DNA of 64,000 nt from Mucilaginibacter gotjawali (GTDB taxonomy: Bacteria; Bacteroidota; Bacteroidia; Sphingobacteriales; Sphingobacteriaceae). Within the stretch, counting starts at the first letter, position 1, and each line of letters starts with the position of its first letter. Below, one piece after another: positions 3,016 through 58,949 of this stretch. The notes under the pieces were generated by a model, which was not told where the DNA came from, made no database searches, and worked only from the letters and a program-made list of their open reading frames with translations. Both the position numbers and the translations under genes were made by a program. The stretch covers positions 2,914,001 to 2,978,000 of the forward strand of contig NZ_AP017313.1 in NCBI RefSeq assembly GCF_002355435.1, read 5' to 3'.

Positions 3016-3058
3016 AATTCACTAATTCAATAATTCACTAATTCAATAATTAGTCACC
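3016..3058 (+). repeat. Octamer leader array ending 3 nt before the start codon
   Basis: Five octamers in exact register, AATTCACT, AATTCAAT, AATTCACT, AATTCAAT, AATTAGTC (3016-3055), are followed by ACC and the ATG at 3059. The same arrangement precedes the permeases at 5571 and 8023 and the mgtC-like gene. Copying of the leader with the gene during tandem duplication could explain the permease cases but not mgtC. Confidence 0.8.
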
Positions 3059-8022: not shown

Positions 8023-10398
8023 ATGATAAAAAACTATTTTAAAACCGCCTGGCGTAATATTTTAAACAACAAATTTTACTCCGCTATCAACATCACAGGC
8101 CTTACATTAGGGCTCACTGTTGGCTTGCTTATCCTTTTGTGGGTAAATGATGAGCTAAGTTTTGACAGGTTCAATACCCGTGCGGAACACCTTTACCAGA
8201 TGGATGCCCAGATTGGTACGGGGAGCAGCAAACAATTATGGGCCGGCGTGCAAGGCCCGGTAGCTACCTACGCGCTTAAGGAAGTGCCGGGAGTGAAAAA
8301 TGCAGTAAGGATTATATACAATTTTAATTATTCGGTATTCAGATACAAGGAAAGGCTGTTAAGTACAGGCGAGAATGGCAATTGGTATGTCGACCCTTCT
8401 TTTTTTAAGGTGTTCGATTTTAAACTATTAAAAGGGAATATTAATGCACCTTTCCCGAACGATAAATCAATTATCATAACAGAAAGCACCGCAAAACGTT
8501 TTTTTGGTGATGCCGACCCGATGGGCAAAGCTTTGTTGGGCGACAATAAAGATAATTACATTGTTGCCGGTTTAATGGCTGATCCGCCCGAAAATTCCTC
8601 TATCAAGTTCGATATGCTTTTTTCTATCGATGTTAGAAAAAAACAATACAGCCGTACTGATTACTGGAAATCAATGGATGAAGATTGGGGCAATTATTAC
8701 ACCAGCACTTTTTTATTGCTTCAACCCGGTACCTCCACGCAGGCAGTGGCTGATAAATTAACAAAAATACATGTGCGGCATCAGCCAGGTCCTGATGCCG
8801 CCAAGGTTAAATACCAGATGCAGCCTTTTACGCAAATCCATTTGTACAATCCGGATGGTAGTGCCTCGGGCATGCAAACCGTAAGGATATTTTTGATTGT
8901 GGCAGTATTTATATTGCTGATAGCCTGTATCAATTATGTAAACCTGTCAACGGCCCGTGCCATGCTGCGTTCAAAAGAAGTAAGCATCCGCAAAATAATC
9001 GGCGCGGAAAAAAAGCAACTTTTTGCACAGTTTGTTATCGAAACGGTCTTGTTTTTTTCAATGGCCCTGGTATTGGCATTTGCGGCCATTGAAATCCTGA
9101 TGCCGTTATACAATACTGTTTCGGGCAAACAAATGCAGTTTAACTTATTTGATGCCGGCGTATGGAAAGTTATAGGGCTTACTGTTTTAGCAACATTAAC
9201 CGCTTCAAGTATTTATCCTGCTTTACTATTGTCATCATTTAAACCCATCAGCGCCTTAAAGGGCAAAATATCATTAGGGGTTGGTAATGTAGCTTTCCGG
9301 AAAATACTGGTGGTTACCCAATTTATCTTTTCCATCGGCTTGATCATCGGTACTATCATCATCAACAGCCAATTAAAATACATCAGGGAAAAGGAATTGG
9401 GGTATGATAAATCTTATGTATTTTCATTCGGGATGCGTGATATGCAAAAGAATTATGAGGGTGTACGCACTGAATTGCTTAACCGGCCAGGGGTATATGG
9501 GGTCACCAGTTCCAGTGATAATATCGTAAATATTGGCAATAATACGGGCGATACAGATTGGGATGGCAAGGACCCTAATTCGTTATTCCTGATCCATCCG
9601 ATGTATATCGATAAATACTACCTGGATGTTTTTAAAGTGAAGATGGCTGCCGGAAAAGGGTTTGCCGGGTATAAAACAGATTCGGCACACTTTATTTTAA
9701 ACGAAACCGCCGTACGCGCCACGGGGATAACAAACCCGGTTGGTAAACGATTTAAACTGCATGACATTAACGGGACAATAATAGGGGTGGTGCGCGATTT
9801 TCATTTTGCTTCATTGAAACAAAAGATTGAGCCGGCCATCTTTGCTTATCAACCCGGCAACAACTGGCGGATATCTATCCGCACAACAGGTAAAGACGCT
9901 TCTAAAGCCATTGCTGCCGCCGCAAAAATTTGGAAACAATATAACCCGGCCTTCCCGTTTGAATATAAGTTTTTGGATGATGATTATAACAACCTTTACA
10001 AAACCGACCAGCGCTCCGGAACGCTTTTCAGCGCCTTTGCGGCTATTGCCATATTGATCTCTTGCCTTGGTTTATTTGGCCTTGCAACGTATACAGCCCA
10101 GGTAAAAATTAAGGAAATAGGTATTCGCAAGGTGCTTGGCGCTAGTGTTTCCAATATAACAGCAATGCTCTCAAAAGACTTCCTGATCCTGGTAGTAATC
10201 TCATTGATCATAGCTACCCCGGTCGCCTGGTTTGCCATGTATAAATGGCTTCAGGATTACGCATACCGCATCACTATACAATGGTGGGTGTTTGCAATTG
10301 CCGGAGTAACAGCAATAACCATCGCTTTTATAACCATGAGTTTTCAGGCGATAAAAGCAGCTTTGGCCAACCCGGTTAAAAGTTTACGGAGCGAATAG
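8023..10398 (+). CDS. ABC transporter permease (MacB-like periplasmic domain plus two FtsX domains)
   Basis: 791 residues, last of the tandem set. It has the common N-terminus MIKNYFKTAWRNILNNKFY, a membrane segment (about 20-42), a periplasmic core domain, FtsX domain 1 with EVSIRKIIGA near 319 (a less typical form of the motif), a second periplasmic domain, and FtsX domain 2 with EIGIRKVLGA near 696, ending NPVKSLRSE. It is likely an inner-membrane subunit of a MacB-like exporter or mechanotransmission complex; the partner is not in the window. The stop codon is followed after 6 nt by the GATTAGA heptamer array. Confidence 0.93.
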   Translation: MIKNYFKTAWRNILNNKFYSAINITGLTLGLTVGLLILLWVNDELSFDRFNTRAEHLYQMDAQIGTGSSKQLWAGVQGPVATYALKEVPGVKNAVRIIYNFNYSVFRYKERLLSTGENGNWYVDPSFFKVFDFKLLKGNINAPFPNDKSIIITESTAKRFFGDADPMGKALLGDNKDNYIVAGLMADPPENSSIKFDMLFSIDVRKKQYSRTDYWKSMDEDWGNYYTSTFLLLQPGTSTQAVADKLTKIHVRHQPGPDAAKVKYQMQPFTQIHLYNPDGSASGMQTVRIFLIVAVFILLIACINYVNLSTARAMLRSKEVSIRKIIGAEKKQLFAQFVIETVLFFSMALVLAFAAIEILMPLYNTVSGKQMQFNLFDAGVWKVIGLTVLATLTASSIYPALLLSSFKPISALKGKISLGVGNVAFRKILVVTQFIFSIGLIIGTIIINSQLKYIREKELGYDKSYVFSFGMRDMQKNYEGVRTELLNRPGVYGVTSSSDNIVNIGNNTGDTDWDGKDPNSLFLIHPMYIDKYYLDVFKVKMAAGKGFAGYKTDSAHFILNETAVRATGITNPVGKRFKLHDINGTIIGVVRDFHFASLKQKIEPAIFAYQPGNNWRISIRTTGKDASKAIAAAAKIWKQYNPAFPFEYKFLDDDYNNLYKTDQRSGTLFSAFAAIAILISCLGLFGLATYTAQVKIKEIGIRKVLGASVSNITAMLSKDFLILVVISLIIATPVAWFAMYKWLQDYAYRITIQWWVFAIAGVTAITIAFITMSFQAIKAALANPVKSLRSE

Positions 10399-10404
10399 GG
10401 TAGT

Positions 10405-10510
10405 GATCAGAGGTTGGAGATTAGAGATTAGAGATTAGAGATTAGAGATTAGAAAAATTAACCGAATTATTTCGGCCTAATCTCCAATCTCTAGTCTCTG
10501 ATCTCTAACC
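10405..10510. repeat. Heptamer array GATTAGA, two inverted arms between convergent genes
   Basis: Left arm 10405-10453: seven heptamers in strict register, GATCAGA, GGTTGGA, then five perfect GATTAGA. Right arm 10476-10510: five degenerate heptamers of the complement (reading minus: GGTTAGA, GATCAGA, GACTAGA, GATTGGA, GATTAGG). The spacer holds a small CCGAAnnnnTTCGG-type palindrome (10462-10475). The right arm reaches the stop codon of the minus-strand manC gene. The RNA of either strand could fold into a long stem, so it may end transcription from both sides. Confidence 0.85.
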
Positions 10511-11595
10511 TAAATATACTTTGTTCCGAACTGTTGTTTTACGTCGGCAACCACTTTTTTAACATTTTGTTCCTGGTCGCGGGGGCAAATCAGCAGCGTA
10601 TTGTTGGCTTCAACCACAATAAAATCATGCAGGCCCTGTAAAATAACCAACTTTTCGCCAGGTACATTCACCATACAATTGGATGAATCGTACATGATTA
10701 CCTTTTCAGCAGGGATAACTGCGTTTCCGACATAATCTTTTTCTGCCAGATCATAAATGGATGCCCAGGTACCCAGGTCGCTCCAGCCAAATTCCGAAGG
10801 CAGAACATAAACATTGTTGGCCTTTTCCATTATGCCATAGTCAATGGATATGTTGGTGCATTGCTGGTAGGTTTTGTGAATATGATTTCTTTCCTCGGGG
10901 GTGTTGTAAACCGGCCGTGAATCCGCAAATATTTCGTGCATATCGGGCAGGTATTGGTTAAATGCATGTACAATAGCCCTGGCCGACCATACAAATATAC
11001 CAGCATTCCAAAGGAAATCGCCGCTTTGCAAAAAGGTTTTGGCTATTTCCAGCGTGGGCTTTTCGGTAAAGGTCTTTACCTTGTAAAAATCATTTTCGAG
11101 GCTGTTATCGGTATATTGAATGTACCCGTACCCGGTGTCTGGCCTTGAAGGTTTAATACCCAGCGTTATCAGGCAATTGTTTTCAGTAGCTACCTTAAGG
11201 GATTTTTCGATGGCGCTTACAAAAGCGGCTTCGTCTAAAATCAAATGATCTGAGGGGGCTACGACAATTGCTGCGTCAGGATTCATGCTTTCAATTCTAA
11301 AGGATCCATAGGCGATGCAAGGCGCTGTATTACGCATTACCGGTTCTGTCAGGATCTGGTCGTCGCCCATATCAGGCAATTGTTTTTTTACCAGGTCCGT
11401 ATAAATTTCATTGGTAACAACGTAAATATTTTCTTTGGGGCATATTTTTAAAAAACGATCATAGGTGTTTTGTATTAATGTTTTCCCGGTTCCTAAAATA
11501 TCAATAAATTGTTTGGGGTGAGAAGTGCGGCTGATGGGCCAGAAGCGGCTCCCGATTCCGCCTGCCATGATAATGGCGTAGTAGTTTTTATTCAT
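10510..11595 (-). CDS. manC: Mannose-1-phosphate guanylyltransferase
   Basis: 361 residues. It makes GDP-mannose from mannose 1-phosphate and GTP in the cytoplasm, feeding polysaccharide and glycan synthesis. The N-terminus has the nucleotidyltransferase signature MAGGIGSRFWPISR followed by PKQF (about residues 11-30), and later VAPSDHLI and FTEKP. At about 360 residues it is the short form: only the GT-A-type transferase domain and its beta-helix tail, without the isomerase/cupin domain of bifunctional enzymes. No other sugar-nucleotide genes lie nearby. The start ATG at 11595 directly precedes the signature region, as expected. Confidence 0.93.
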   Translation of the reverse strand: MNKNYYAIIMAGGIGSRFWPISRTSHPKQFIDILGTGKTLIQNTYDRFLKICPKENIYVVTNEIYTDLVKKQLPDMGDDQILTEPVMRNTAPCIAYGSFRIESMNPDAAIVVAPSDHLILDEAAFVSAIEKSLKVATENNCLITLGIKPSRPDTGYGYIQYTDNSLENDFYKVKTFTEKPTLEIAKTFLQSGDFLWNAGIFVWSARAIVHAFNQYLPDMHEIFADSRPVYNTPEERNHIHKTYQQCTNISIDYGIMEKANNVYVLPSEFGWSDLGTWASIYDLAEKDYVGNAVIPAEKVIMYDSSNCMVNVPGEKLVILQGLHDFIVVEANNTLLICPRDQEQNVKKVVADVKQQFGTKYI

Positions 11596-18846: not shown

Positions 18847-19320
18847 TTACAACTCAAAACTCAACAACTGTTCCTTTGATAAAGATCCGTTTAACCAGCC
18901 TGCTTCTATACCGGCTTCATATTTTTTATAGAATTTTATAGCAGGCTCGTTCCAGTCGAGCACCTGCCAGGCCATTCCGTTAAAGCCCATTTCTTTTGCC
19001 TCAACGATCAGCCTGTCGAATAATAATTTACCGACGCCTTTACCGCGCATTGCTTCGGTAACGATCAGGTCCTCCAAATACATTCTGCAACCCTTCCAGG
19101 TAGAGTAACGGATATAGTATACGGCGAATGCTACAATCGAGCCATCAACTTCGGCAACAAACGCCTTCCAAACGGGCTTTTCGCCAAAGCCGGCATCTTC
19201 AAACTCCTGCAGGGTAACGGTAACCTCTTCCGGTGCCCTTTCAAAAAGCGCAAGTTCATTAACCAGTTCCAATAACCGGGGGCAATCTTCTTTTTTTGCT
19301 ATTCGTATTTTTACGTTCAT
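18847..19320 (-). CDS. GNAT N-acetyltransferase, diamine/polyamine acetyltransferase-like
   Basis: 157 residues, one GNAT fold. The acetyl-CoA-binding motif is in LEDLIVTEAMRGKGVGKLLF (about 87-106), and the C-terminal motif is WNEPAIKFYKKYEA. The spacing and the CRMYLEDLIV stretch resemble the spermidine/spermine N1-acetyltransferase subgroup, but the substrate is an inference. The ATG at 19320 gives the standard MNVKIRIAKKEDCPRL beginning. It is followed closely by aspartate kinase. Confidence 0.85.
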   Translation of the reverse strand: MNVKIRIAKKEDCPRLLELVNELALFERAPEEVTVTLQEFEDAGFGEKPVWKAFVAEVDGSIVAFAVYYIRYSTWKGCRMYLEDLIVTEAMRGKGVGKLLFDRLIVEAKEMGFNGMAWQVLDWNEPAIKFYKKYEAGIEAGWLNGSLSKEQLLSFEL

Positions 19321-19397
19321 TAGTTCAATCGTTCATTAGTTCATTGGTAGAATGTTGGGTTAAATAATTGCACATCGATCTTTTATTTCGAAAAGAA

Positions 19398-31937: not shown

Positions 31938-32025
31938 CGCTTTTCAGTTTTTAATGTTTTAGATAAAGGTAAGTCGTATTAGTTTAAAAAAAAGGATGTA
32001 ACTTAATTGTTGCCTTGCGGGAATT

Positions 32026-32137
32026 AGTTGATTGGTTGATTAAGTAAGTAGTTGATTGAGTTACCGGGGGCCAACCTCCTTACAGCCATATAACAAACCA
32101 TTCACTTAATCAACCTAATCAACCAATCAACTAATTA
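32026..32137. repeat. Octamer array GGTTGATT with inverted arms
   Basis: Left arm 32026-32057: AGTTGATT, GGTTGATT, AAGTAAGT, AGTTGATT in 8-bp register. Right arm 32108-32137: AATCAAC units starting at 32108, 32117 and 32125. A 21-bp stretch is perfectly complementary between the arms (32022-32042 with 32116-32136). The right arm overlaps the stop codon of the S24 repressor gene. The spacer of about 50-70 bp holds GTTACCGGGGGCCAACCTCC. Confidence 0.85.
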
Positions 32138-49312: not shown

Positions 49313-49500
49313 GATTTTTGATTTCGGATTTTTCGCAGTTGTATGTTTTTTTAGTGCTCAAGATGGCTGCTCCGTTTCGGAATTTCGATTTCGGAATTTT
49401 AAATGTCGTTTTTTTAATGACGACACCAGTCGTTCAAAATAAACTAAATTCGAAATCGAAATTCCGAAATCCGAAGTAGGGATATTCCGAAATCAAAAAC
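49313..49500. repeat. TTTCGGAA array with two pairs of inverted arms between divergent genes
   Basis: Inner arms: TTTCGGAATTTCGATTTCGG (49375-49394) against the complement in 49446-49475 (reading plus: CGAAATCGAAATTCCGAAAT). Outer arms: TTTTTGATTTCGGA (49315-49328) against TCCGAAATCAAAAA (49486-49499). The units equal those of the 31-bp repeats at 19398 and 25508. The array fills almost the whole gap between the acyl-CoA dehydrogenase promoter and the folB promoter. Confidence 0.8.
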
Positions 49501-51279: not shown

Positions 51280-51320
51280 GGTTGATTGGGTTGGATTAAG
51301 TTGATTAATTGATCGGTTGT
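51280..51320. repeat. Single-arm GGTTGATT array after the GlcD-like gene
   Basis: GGTTGATT (51280-51287), GGGTTGGATT, AAGTTGATT, AATTGATC and GGTTG follow each other directly after the stop codon. It uses the same unit as the two-armed array at 32026-32137, but I see no inverted partner here. Confidence 0.6.
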
Positions 51321-56115: not shown

Positions 56116-56607
56116 TCAATCCCGCATATTAATATACTGCAACGGCTGCCCGAAATTGTCTTTGCGGCATAAAGCGATAACAGCCTGCAGGTCGTCAATT
56201 TTTTTACCTTGTACCCGCACCTGGTCGTCCATAATAGAAGCCTGCACCTTCAGGCCGCTGTCTTTGATTGCTTTCACTATCTTTTTAGCAGCTTCCTTAT
56301 CAATTCCCTCTTTTATCTTTATTTCCTTGCGGATCATATTGCCTGATGCATATTGTTCTTTGCCAAAATCAAGGGCGTTAGGATCCAGGTGTTGTTTAAC
56401 CATTCTGCCGATGATGGAATCCTGGATGGCTTTCAGGCGCATATCATTTTCAGTCACTACTGTTAATGTATTGGTTTTTTTGTCCAGGTCGATAGTGCTT
56501 TTACTGTCGTGGAAATCGTAACGGTTCAATATTTCCTTTTTTGCGGTGTTAACGGCATTATCAAGCGTTTGGCCGTCGATTTTGCTTACTATATCAAAAG
56601 TTGGCAT
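56116..56607 (-). CDS. yajQ: YajQ family nucleotide-binding protein
   Basis: 163 residues from the ATG at 56607. The fold has two ferredoxin-like RNP domains. MPTFDIVSKIDGQTLDNAVN starts the family, NRYDFHDSKSTIDLD and RKEIKIKEGIDKEAAKKI follow. Some YajQ proteins bind cyclic di-GMP, others RNA or tRNA. The frame is open upstream to 56655, but that segment comes from the heptamer array region and includes the promoter box, so I reject the longer start. Confidence 0.93.
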   Translation of the reverse strand: MPTFDIVSKIDGQTLDNAVNTAKKEILNRYDFHDSKSTIDLDKKTNTLTVVTENDMRLKAIQDSIIGRMVKQHLDPNALDFGKEQYASGNMIRKEIKIKEGIDKEAAKKIVKAIKDSGLKVQASIMDDQVRVQGKKIDDLQAVIALCRKDNFGQPLQYINMRD

Positions 56608-56636: not shown

Positions 56637-56642
56637 GTGATA

Positions 56643-56795
56643 GTTCATGGTTCACAGTTCATGGTTCATGATAAAAAGTTCATAGTTGATAGTTCATCGT
56701 TCATGGTTTTTTTTGCCCGTTCGCCGTTTAATCTATTGACTTTTACCGTGAACCATGAGCTGTGAACCATGAACTATGAACCATCAACGATGAAC
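56643..56795. repeat. Heptamer array GTTCATG, two inverted arms between divergent genes
   Basis: Left arm 56643-56705: nine heptamers in exact 7-bp register, GTTCATG, GTTCACA, GTTCATG, GTTCATG, ATAAAAA, GTTCATA, GTTGATA, GTTCATC, GTTCATG. Right arm 56747-56795: seven complement heptamers, also in register, CGTGAAC, CATGAGC, TGTGAAC, CATGAAC, TATGAAC, CATCAAC, GATGAAC. The spacer contains a T-run and GCCCGTTCGCCG. It fills most of the gap between the yajQ promoter and ppk. Confidence 0.9.
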
Positions 56796-56900: not shown

Positions 56901-58949
56901 ATGGATAATAAGAACGTACCTATCATTAATCGCGAAATAAGCTGGTTATATTTCAACGACAGGGTTTTGCAGGAGGCTGCCGATCCAACCGTCCCGCTAA
57001 TCGACCGTATAAAGTTTTTAGCTATTTTTTCATCAAACCTTGATGAGTTTTACCGTGTCAGGGTGGCTACTTTAAGCCGCCTGGCCAACCTGAATGAAAA
57101 GGCAAAAGAGATTTTAGGTTATAACCCAAAAAAGATCCTCAACCAAATAAAAAACATTGTTGTAAGGCAGGAGCGTAAGTTCAACAACCTGTACGAAAAC
57201 ATTATTGTTAAGCAACTTGCCGAAGAAAAGATCTTTATTCTGAATGACAAGCAATTGAATGTTAGCCGCGGTGAATTCGTGAAGCATTATTTCAGGGAAA
57301 AGTTACTGGCGACTTTAGTGCCCATAATGTTAAACGACGATCTCCCGTTGCCGGAGTTGAGGGACAGGGCTATCTATTTTTTTGTAAAACTCACTAAAAA
57401 CAAAAAAACGAGGCTGGCATTAATTGAATTCCCCGATTCTTTATCCCGGTTTATCGTTTTGCCCGAAACTAATAACCTGAAGTTTATTATCCTGCTGGAT
57501 GATGTGATCCGCTATAGCCTTGAAGATATATTCTTCATTTTTGAACATGATAAAATAGAAGCGTTTTCAATCCAGCTTACCCGAGATGCGGAACTCGACC
57601 TTGACAAAGAGGTGAGCGAGAAATTTATAGATTCCCTTGCAAAAAGCCTGCAAAAGCGGAAGAAGGGTAAGCCGATGCGTTTGCTATACGACTCAGAAAT
57701 GCCGCTGGATATGCTCAAATACCTGGTTAGCAAAATGGGCCTCAACGGCGAAAGCCTGATTCCCGGCAACCGCTATCATAATTTTAAAAACTTCATCTCT
57801 TTTCCCAATGTCGGAAGGCATGAACTGGAATACGAGAAAAATATTCCATTACCGGTTGATGGCCTGTCATTCGGTAAAAGCCTGATGGGAATGGTATCCA
57901 AAAAAGATTATATGATCAGTACGCCATACCAGTCGTATGATTATGTGATCCACTTTTTGCGTGAGGCTGCCATTGACCCAAAAGTTAAGGAGATCAGCAT
58001 TGCAGTTTACAGGCTTGCAGAGAATTCAAGGGTTATCCATGCATTGATCAATGCTGCCAAAAATGGTAAAAAAGTTACCTGCCTGGTTGAACTAAGGGCA
58101 AGGTTTGATGAGCAAAACAACATAGGATGGAGCCGGAGGCTTGAAGAGGAAGGTGTAAATGTACTCTACGGTATTGATGGTTATAAAGTACACTCCAAAA
58201 TTTGCCTGATCGGCAGGCTCGAAAAGGGAAAAATTGAGTATTACGCCTGTTTATCAACGGGTAATTTTAACGAAAAAACGGCGCAGATTTATGCTGACCA
58301 TACCTTGCTTACCGTTAATAAAAGCATCACCGCCGACCTGGTAAATATATTTAAGGCCTTAAATAAAAGCACTTTACCCAGGGGCTTGAAAAGCCTGATC
58401 GTATCTCCCATTGATGCACGCCCCGCCATTTATAAACTGATAGACAATGAGATAAAAAATGCTAAAGCCGGCAAAGAAGCTTACATGATCCTGAAAATGA
58501 ACAGCCTGGCCGACGAGCAAATTATCGCTAAACTATATGAAGCCAGTAACGCCGGTGTTAAAATCAAAATGATCATCAGGGGGATGTGCTGCCTTATTGC
58601 GGGGATGAAAGGCTATAGCGAAAATATTGAAGTGCTGAGTATTGTTGACAAGTACCTCGAACATTCACGCGTGCATATTTATTGTAACGGCGGTAACGAG
58701 CTGATTTATTTAACCTCGGCAGATTTTATGACACGGAACATTGATACCCGCGTTGAAGTAGGCTTTCCGGTACTGGATCCAGAATTGAGAAAAGAAATCA
58801 GGGATATGATCAACCTGCAACTGGAGGATAACACCAAATCACGCGAGATCAATAGCCACAATACTAACAAATACCATAAAAATAATTCGGGCATCCCACA
58901 GCGGGCCCAGGTTGATATTTACAATTACCTTAAATTTAAAAACAAATAA
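56901..58949 (+). CDS. ppk: Polyphosphate kinase 1
   Basis: 682 residues. It makes polyphosphate from ATP through an autophosphorylated histidine. ISWLYFNDRVLQEAADPTVP near 9-28 starts the N domain; SSNLDEFYRVRVATL follows. The phosphohistidine lies in GYKVHSKICL near 431, a second His in HSRVHIYCNG near 587, and LTSADFMTRNIDTRVEVGFP near 600 completes the C domain. An alternative start is not needed. A GCC-GAAA-GGC hairpin (about 56881-56891) lies in the leader. The exopolyphosphatase gene follows after 3 bp. Confidence 0.96.
   Translation: MDNKNVPIINREISWLYFNDRVLQEAADPTVPLIDRIKFLAIFSSNLDEFYRVRVATLSRLANLNEKAKEILGYNPKKILNQIKNIVVRQERKFNNLYENIIVKQLAEEKIFILNDKQLNVSRGEFVKHYFREKLLATLVPIMLNDDLPLPELRDRAIYFFVKLTKNKKTRLALIEFPDSLSRFIVLPETNNLKFIILLDDVIRYSLEDIFFIFEHDKIEAFSIQLTRDAELDLDKEVSEKFIDSLAKSLQKRKKGKPMRLLYDSEMPLDMLKYLVSKMGLNGESLIPGNRYHNFKNFISFPNVGRHELEYEKNIPLPVDGLSFGKSLMGMVSKKDYMISTPYQSYDYVIHFLREAAIDPKVKEISIAVYRLAENSRVIHALINAAKNGKKVTCLVELRARFDEQNNIGWSRRLEEEGVNVLYGIDGYKVHSKICLIGRLEKGKIEYYACLSTGNFNEKTAQIYADHTLLTVNKSITADLVNIFKALNKSTLPRGLKSLIVSPIDARPAIYKLIDNEIKNAKAGKEAYMILKMNSLADEQIIAKLYEASNAGVKIKMIIRGMCCLIAGMKGYSENIEVLSIVDKYLEHSRVHIYCNGGNELIYLTSADFMTRNIDTRVEVGFPVLDPELRKEIRDMINLQLEDNTKSREINSHNTNKYHKNNSGIPQRAQVDIYNYLKFKNK

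Follow-up and report, generated by a model that had tools for sequence, protein, structure and literature searches.

Heptamer repeats have long been noted in the intergenic regions of bacteria, and we know of no agreed function for them. The closest described repeats are the TAACTGA arrays of marine Beggiatoaceae, cyanobacteria, and some Bacteroidetes (MacGregor 2015, PMC4679880). These are unspaced, gene-directional 7-bp intergenic units, many ending a few nucleotides before start codons, with some sets split by related heptamers, a very patchy distribution, and no identified reader (PMC4679880). A single exact unit is used, in two to six copies and nearly always on the start side, and the main genome has only one inverted repeat (PMC4679880). 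The closest tested precedent for how such units may work is the omega protein (ParB) of plasmid pSM19035. Its heptads are non-palindromic and adjoin one another directly, each is bound by one dimer, and full function takes a minimum of four in a row; the heptads (WATCACW) are arranged as 7–10 repeats at six plasmid sites, at promoters (PMC9499535).

We analyzed a 64,000-nt window of the 6.34-Mb single-contig genome of a Mucilaginibacter in which a heptamer array lies at 56643–56795, between the divergent genes yajQ and ppk. This array is best explained as one member of a family of dispersed gene-edge elements. The family has in common with the TAACTGA class unspaced intergenic 7-bp units that occur beyond chance. 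In contrast to that class, its units are GTTSATR or GWCSATR, its arms hold four degenerate units each and form inverted pairs around the intergenic space, it is dominated by the stop side (both sides being used) rather than lying mostly upstream of start codons, and several of its dialects replace each other at one locus. The arms are like the omega sites in having four or more contiguous heptads that are non-palindromic, but their sequence is not WATCACW, and the resemblance is one of working, not of membership. A literature search returned no account of such arrays in Mucilaginibacter, Pedobacter, or Bacteroidetes beyond the TAACTGA paper, and literal sequence strings led to unrelated papers only, probably through chance strings. 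It was originally suggested that the array could be a poorly described type of mobile or regulatory repeat, and this is still a fair label.

Direct reading bears out the original observation of a heptamer array with two inverted arms: nine heptamers are followed by a loop and seven inverted heptamers (Table 1). The left part (56643–56705) makes up the count of nine if the central ATAAAAA is included, and the right part, read inward from 56795, runs through blocks B' and A' to GTAAAAG. The arrangement is far beyond what chance would give: exact GTTSAY runs kept in phase reach a length of 5 in the window but never more than 2 in 200 dinucleotide shuffles, and period-7 segments score 22–33 in the window with none above threshold in ten shuffles. 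ATAAAAA had been taken, on account of its 7-nt length, as evidence of register. It is instead the joint of two four-unit blocks rather than a degenerate heptamer; at the same locus of the congener G066 the block joints are 10 nt long (GTAGAAAATA and GAAGAAAAAA). At yajQ–ppk, arrays are present in 4 of the 23 species examined, namely the source genome, G066 (many GTTCATR units), G105 (GTCCAT-type units), and G065 (a degraded form). The window copy is itself atypical: it lies 35 and 105 nt from the start codons, and each of its sides combines two blocks. The divergent-promoter setting that had been put forward for it does not typify the family, as most arms abut stop or start codons.

Table 1. 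Features in and around the yajQ–ppk array, in window positions; unit sequences are written in the direction of the strand given.
Feature	Position	Strand	Remarks
yajQ (DUF520, PF04461)	56116–56607	−	ATG 35 nt from array
Left block A, GTTCATG GTTCACA GTTCATG GTTCATG	56643–56670	+	Four heptamers, inward from yajQ; direct reading; size is the family mode
Joint ATAAAAA between two four-unit blocks	56671–56677	+	Joints of 10 nt in G066 at yajQ–ppk; mirrored by GTAAAAG
Left block B, GTTCATA GTTGATA GTTCATC GTTCATG	56678–56705	+	Four heptamers, unit 2 is GTTGAT; direct reading
Loop between arms	56706–56739	.	No Rfam family above gathering score; no intrinsic terminator
GTAAAAG, inner joint of right arm, mirrors ATAAAAA	56740–56746	−	Direct reading; stem
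Right block A', GTTCACA GCTCATG GTTCACG	56747–56767	−	Pairs with block A; direct reading and folding
Right block B', GTTCATC GTTGATG GTTCATA GTTCATG	56768–56795	−	Four heptamers, inward from ppk; direct reading
ppk, polyphosphate kinase	56901–58949	+	ATG 105 nt from array

The array belongs to a genome-wide and genus-wide family, as a search of the genome and its relatives revealed. The GTTSAYNGTTSAYNGTTSAY pattern has 67 matches in the genome (about 30 GTTSATR loci) and its reversed control has none. At least one GTTSATR match was found in 125 of 149 congeners, with counts per genome that vary widely; because the other 24 are without a match, this dialect is dispensable. A second, more abundant dialect, GWCSATR, accounts for 141 matches in the source genome (control 0) and forms dozens of elements, and a few CAAGARN arrays are also present, such that several dialects coexist within one genome. 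An AGTYNNN core common to all dialects was considered and fails for the CAAGANN dialect. Outside the genus, GTTSATR-type matches are scattered in a class sample and are mostly of the GTTGATG type. An exact 29-base pattern also occurs in records labelled Saprospiraceae, Pedobacter, Ferruginibacter, and a cyanobacterium, some of which are metagenome bins whose labels may be wrong. Three metagenome-assembled contigs labelled Flavobacterium or Gomphosphaeria (L338, L348, and L382) carry arrays of 33 to 70 units of GTTSATR words, which suggests that these words expand freely outside the source genome.

The window holds further bracketing arrays of other sequence, in keeping with the family of 7/8-bp arrays first noted there. 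A convergent pair is bracketed by five to six copies of GAGATTA and by the inverse AATCTCY (10398–10511), which fill the space between the stop codons at 10398 and 10510. Arrays of other 7/8-bp words (GTTGATTG and TTTCGGAA) lie at 32023–32135, 49375–49493, and 51281–51313; inverted partners accompany the ones at 32023 and 49375, and the ones at 32135 and 51281 adjoin stop codons. Octamer arrays occur at 3016–3051 (AATTCACT/AATTCAAT) and at 19315–19348 (GTTCATTA), the latter having a GTTCAT core in common with the heptamer family.

A typical arm is a directional, 28-bp series of contiguous 7-bp sites, GTTCATR GTTSATR GTTSATR GTTCATR. Exactly four units are found in 86 of 122 arms from 30 source-genome loci and 38 G061 regions, with unit positions 1, 2, 3, 5, and 6 ~98% invariant. 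At position 4, units 1 and 4 have C and units 2 and 3 have either C or G; position 7 is divided about 50:50 between A and G. Exactly one GTTGAT per arm is present in 65 of 91 arms. The GWCSATR dialect of the source genome follows the same rules, with four units in 52 of 65 arms and GTCGAT mostly in unit 2. Both of these counts of four were obtained with patterns that required just three units. In an additional set of loci, which was chosen by a different pattern and partly overlaps G061, four is the overwhelming mode (110 arms, with 12 in the next class), a weaker support for this number because the pattern itself required four units.

Adjacent units are seldom identical (R2 = R3 in 24 of 142 arms), and the same avoidance of identity extends to paired arms. 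At R, 104 of 288 comparisons between paired arms match compared with 141 expected from random re-pairing (pooled z −4.1, the smallest subset not being significant by itself). The long hairpin that had been suggested for the array can form: as single-stranded DNA 56643–56795 folds with −32.6 kcal/mol (z −7.5) and as RNA with z −9.7, and because folding gives a near-perfect 31-bp stem (56640–56670 with 56747–56777), the arms of the window copy agree in unit order, GTTCACA lying opposite TGTGAAC. A perfect hairpin, on the other hand, is not what is selected, because the degenerate positions avoid identity between arms, and selection for one was rejected on the ground that the arms anti-match at their free positions R and S, where pairing would call for agreement. 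This can be read simply as instability or harm caused by perfect tandem repeats and by perfect palindromes of some length, with differences being tolerated at the free positions.

The outer ends of the arms normally abut coding sequence. The stop-facing offsets of 63 arms cluster at −4 (13 cases), −3 (9), +1 (10), and +8 (5); where the offset is +1, +8, or similar, part or all of the stop codon belongs to the array. Arms on the start side, which is used as well as the more prominent stop side, often finish a few nucleotides before the ATG. The polarity is nearly invariant, with adjacent arms at most 150 nt apart pointing inward in 148 cases and outward in 1. Partnerless arms exist on the stop side and the start side alike, so that the arms need neither a hairpin nor a particular RNA strand. 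Many pairs occupy the gap of convergent genes, right after both stop codons and sometimes without a visible separate terminator, and in many congeners a terminator-like stem sits between the arms.

The dialects turn over between species, as is seen in the gap between the convergent genes for P5C dehydrogenase and carbonic anhydrase, of which 54 intergenic regions were compared and their states assigned by eye. Thirteen regions have GTTCAT arms, 4 GTCCAT, 16 CAAGANN, 3 GKCATTR, 1 GAATATY, and 6 REP-like CCCCCT pairs, and 11 are armless; across the congeners, one and the same gap has brackets of no fewer than five heptamer dialects or of REP-like repeats, or contains a terminator only. The 99% null for an inverted repeat is exceeded by 47 of the 54 regions, the score in several armless ones being that of the terminator. 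On a tree of the flanks, which is short and weak, we count 26 state changes compared with 32 with shuffled labels, and supported sister pairs carry different dialects (e.g., G119 and G082). In six congeners (L270, L275, L280, L281, L284, and L289), this gap has inverted CCCCCTRAAGGGGGAG-type repeats around a terminator, and these abut both stop codons and take the place of the heptamer arms. Nested brackets are seen at L218, L219, and L276, where CAAGANN arms are the outer pair and a GTCATTGCGAGG-type repeat is the inner pair of one intergenic region.

Where the coding flanks of orthologous arms are 80–90% identical, the fixed positions of the arms differ by 1.9% (2.9% without duplicates), R differs by about 35–40%, and the adjacent 25 nt are near random. 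The neutral expectation for the fixed positions, under the same arm-detection filter, is 10.3%. Because the fixed positions differ far less than this, recognition of the arms is under constraint, imposed by the host or by a copying enzyme. At lower flank identity, orthologous arms differ as random pairs do (the bin above 90% holds too few pairs for use), and it is therefore likely that arms are frequently replaced by other copies from the pool. By the same token, the constraint could act on copying rather than on a host function, which weakens purifying selection on the arms as proof of such a function.

Four contiguous, directional 7-bp sites for which a hairpin or an exact repeat is dispensable would suit a cooperatively assembling DNA-binding protein. 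We tentatively propose, as a reading that falls somewhat short of an even chance, that an arm is a putative four-iteron site for such a protein and is also copied among gene edges. Each 7-bp site would be occupied by one subunit, or one dimer, of a sequence-specific protein that oligomerises, and a row of four would give rise to a stable, directional complex at the gene edge. Such a complex might be a polar boundary that, for instance, keeps transcription from running into the intergenic region. At gene edges, arms would be gained anew or exchanged time and again, including for arms of other dialects that presumably have other readers. We infer here that the reader is a protein, that its target is DNA and not RNA, that it has a boundary role, and how its sites spread as copies. 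The distance of the window copy from both start codons counts against a binding site of this kind, as do the dispensability of the GTTSATR dialect and the likeness of the more distant orthologous arms to random pairs. A search of the genome for omega (PF07764) gave no match, nor did any control genome match.

We judge a REP- or MITE-like selfish repeat to be a close rival to the binding-site view, with an RNA stem third and neutral slippage least. As a selfish repeat, the arms would be recognition sequences of a putative transposase or copying enzyme whose insertions land next to stop codons or terminators, their position would reflect tolerated insertion, and they would have no host function; we consider this possible, if on the doubtful side. 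It would account for a single core sequence at dozens of unrelated loci and for the whole-intergenic swap of dialects or CCCCCT pairs at one gene pair, in which sisters differ. The likeness of low-flank-identity orthologous arms to random pairs is what replacement from a pool would produce, and the near-randomness of the nearby 25 nt despite flanks of 80–90% identity also favors it. REPs are dispersed and extragenic, often lie within 15 nt of stop codons, and may form inverted pairs (PMC12306157). The arms here are likewise extragenic and near stop codons, but the REP unit is palindromic whereas a single arm is a directional direct repeat that may have no partner. REPs are also linked to RAYT genes; an origin from a RAYT/REP system was rejected here, as none of the Y1_Tnp genes examined (10 of 11) has arrays within 1.5 kb and the RAYT-like ones lie beside repeats of their own. 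Most of the source genome's RAYT-like genes (L133–L138) have their own flanking G+C-rich repeats, inverted or direct, which appear to be a REP system distinct from the arms. Inward-pointing arm pairs resemble the terminal inverted repeats of a MITE, but a MITE with target duplication was likewise rejected: 2-bp matches number 10 compared with 9.5 expected, and none is longer. No autonomous element with the arms as its ends was found among the loci examined, and the arms in many congeners bracket a terminator-like stem rather than constituting one compact insert.

An element acting at the level of RNA, in which the inverted arms would form a transcript stem that ends, stabilises, or insulates mRNA 3' ends and replaces or extends the usual terminator, appears improbable to us. 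Paired arms could form long stems, many pairs directly follow both stops of convergent genes, at times with no separate terminator, and in E. coli a REP lying within 15 nt of a stop codon has an effect on translation (PMC12306157). The arms nevertheless pair worse than randomly re-paired ones, single arms of identical grammar are common, arms on the start side would show the opposite RNA strand, and many species retain a separate terminator-like stem between the arms. At the window copy itself, neither an intrinsic terminator (a G+C-rich stem with a T run) nor a U-tract is present, and Rfam gave only sub-threshold, miRNA-type hairpin matches with none above the gathering score. Across 18 loci, only two tRNAs scored above it. 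Neutral mutation, by polymerase slippage in 7-bp steps with template switching that copies one arm inverted, is very unlikely even though long tandem arrays exist (L338, L348, and L382, and a 10-unit arm in G066) and in many bacterial genomes heptamers are reported to be the most frequent of the long repeat units (cited in PMC4679880), since the size of four units is fixed, the arms sit at gene edges with one core at dozens of unrelated loci, adjacent units avoid identity, and template switching predicts a better-than-random match between arms, the opposite of what is observed; slippage in one continuous 7-bp register, slippage being among the processes originally suggested, is not supported as the main process, given the same fixed, non-identical blocks and the 10-nt joints of G066.

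Returning to the four-iteron binding site, the presence of different words at one place in related species points to a sequence-specific system that marks gene boundaries or copies itself to them. DNA uptake sequences often occur as inverted pairs at gene ends. Those of Neisseriaceae form lineage-specific dialects of a short word (PMC3630211). The arrays here are also dialects of a short word but come in tandem fours, are far fewer per genome, and coexist as dialects. A gene-boundary system with inward-pointing four-iteron arms and dialect-specific protein readers, whose dialects are swapped between sister species, is a conceivable if rather unlikely extension of our proposal; it would resemble the uptake-sequence dialects, but with polar, cooperative binding sites. 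This genus of cultivable soil bacteria offers a natural experiment in which four units, exact position at the coding edge, and inward polarity are fixed while the dialects at one gene pair differ. If a reader protein is found, these arrays would represent a new class of gene-boundary element or of self-copying repeat.
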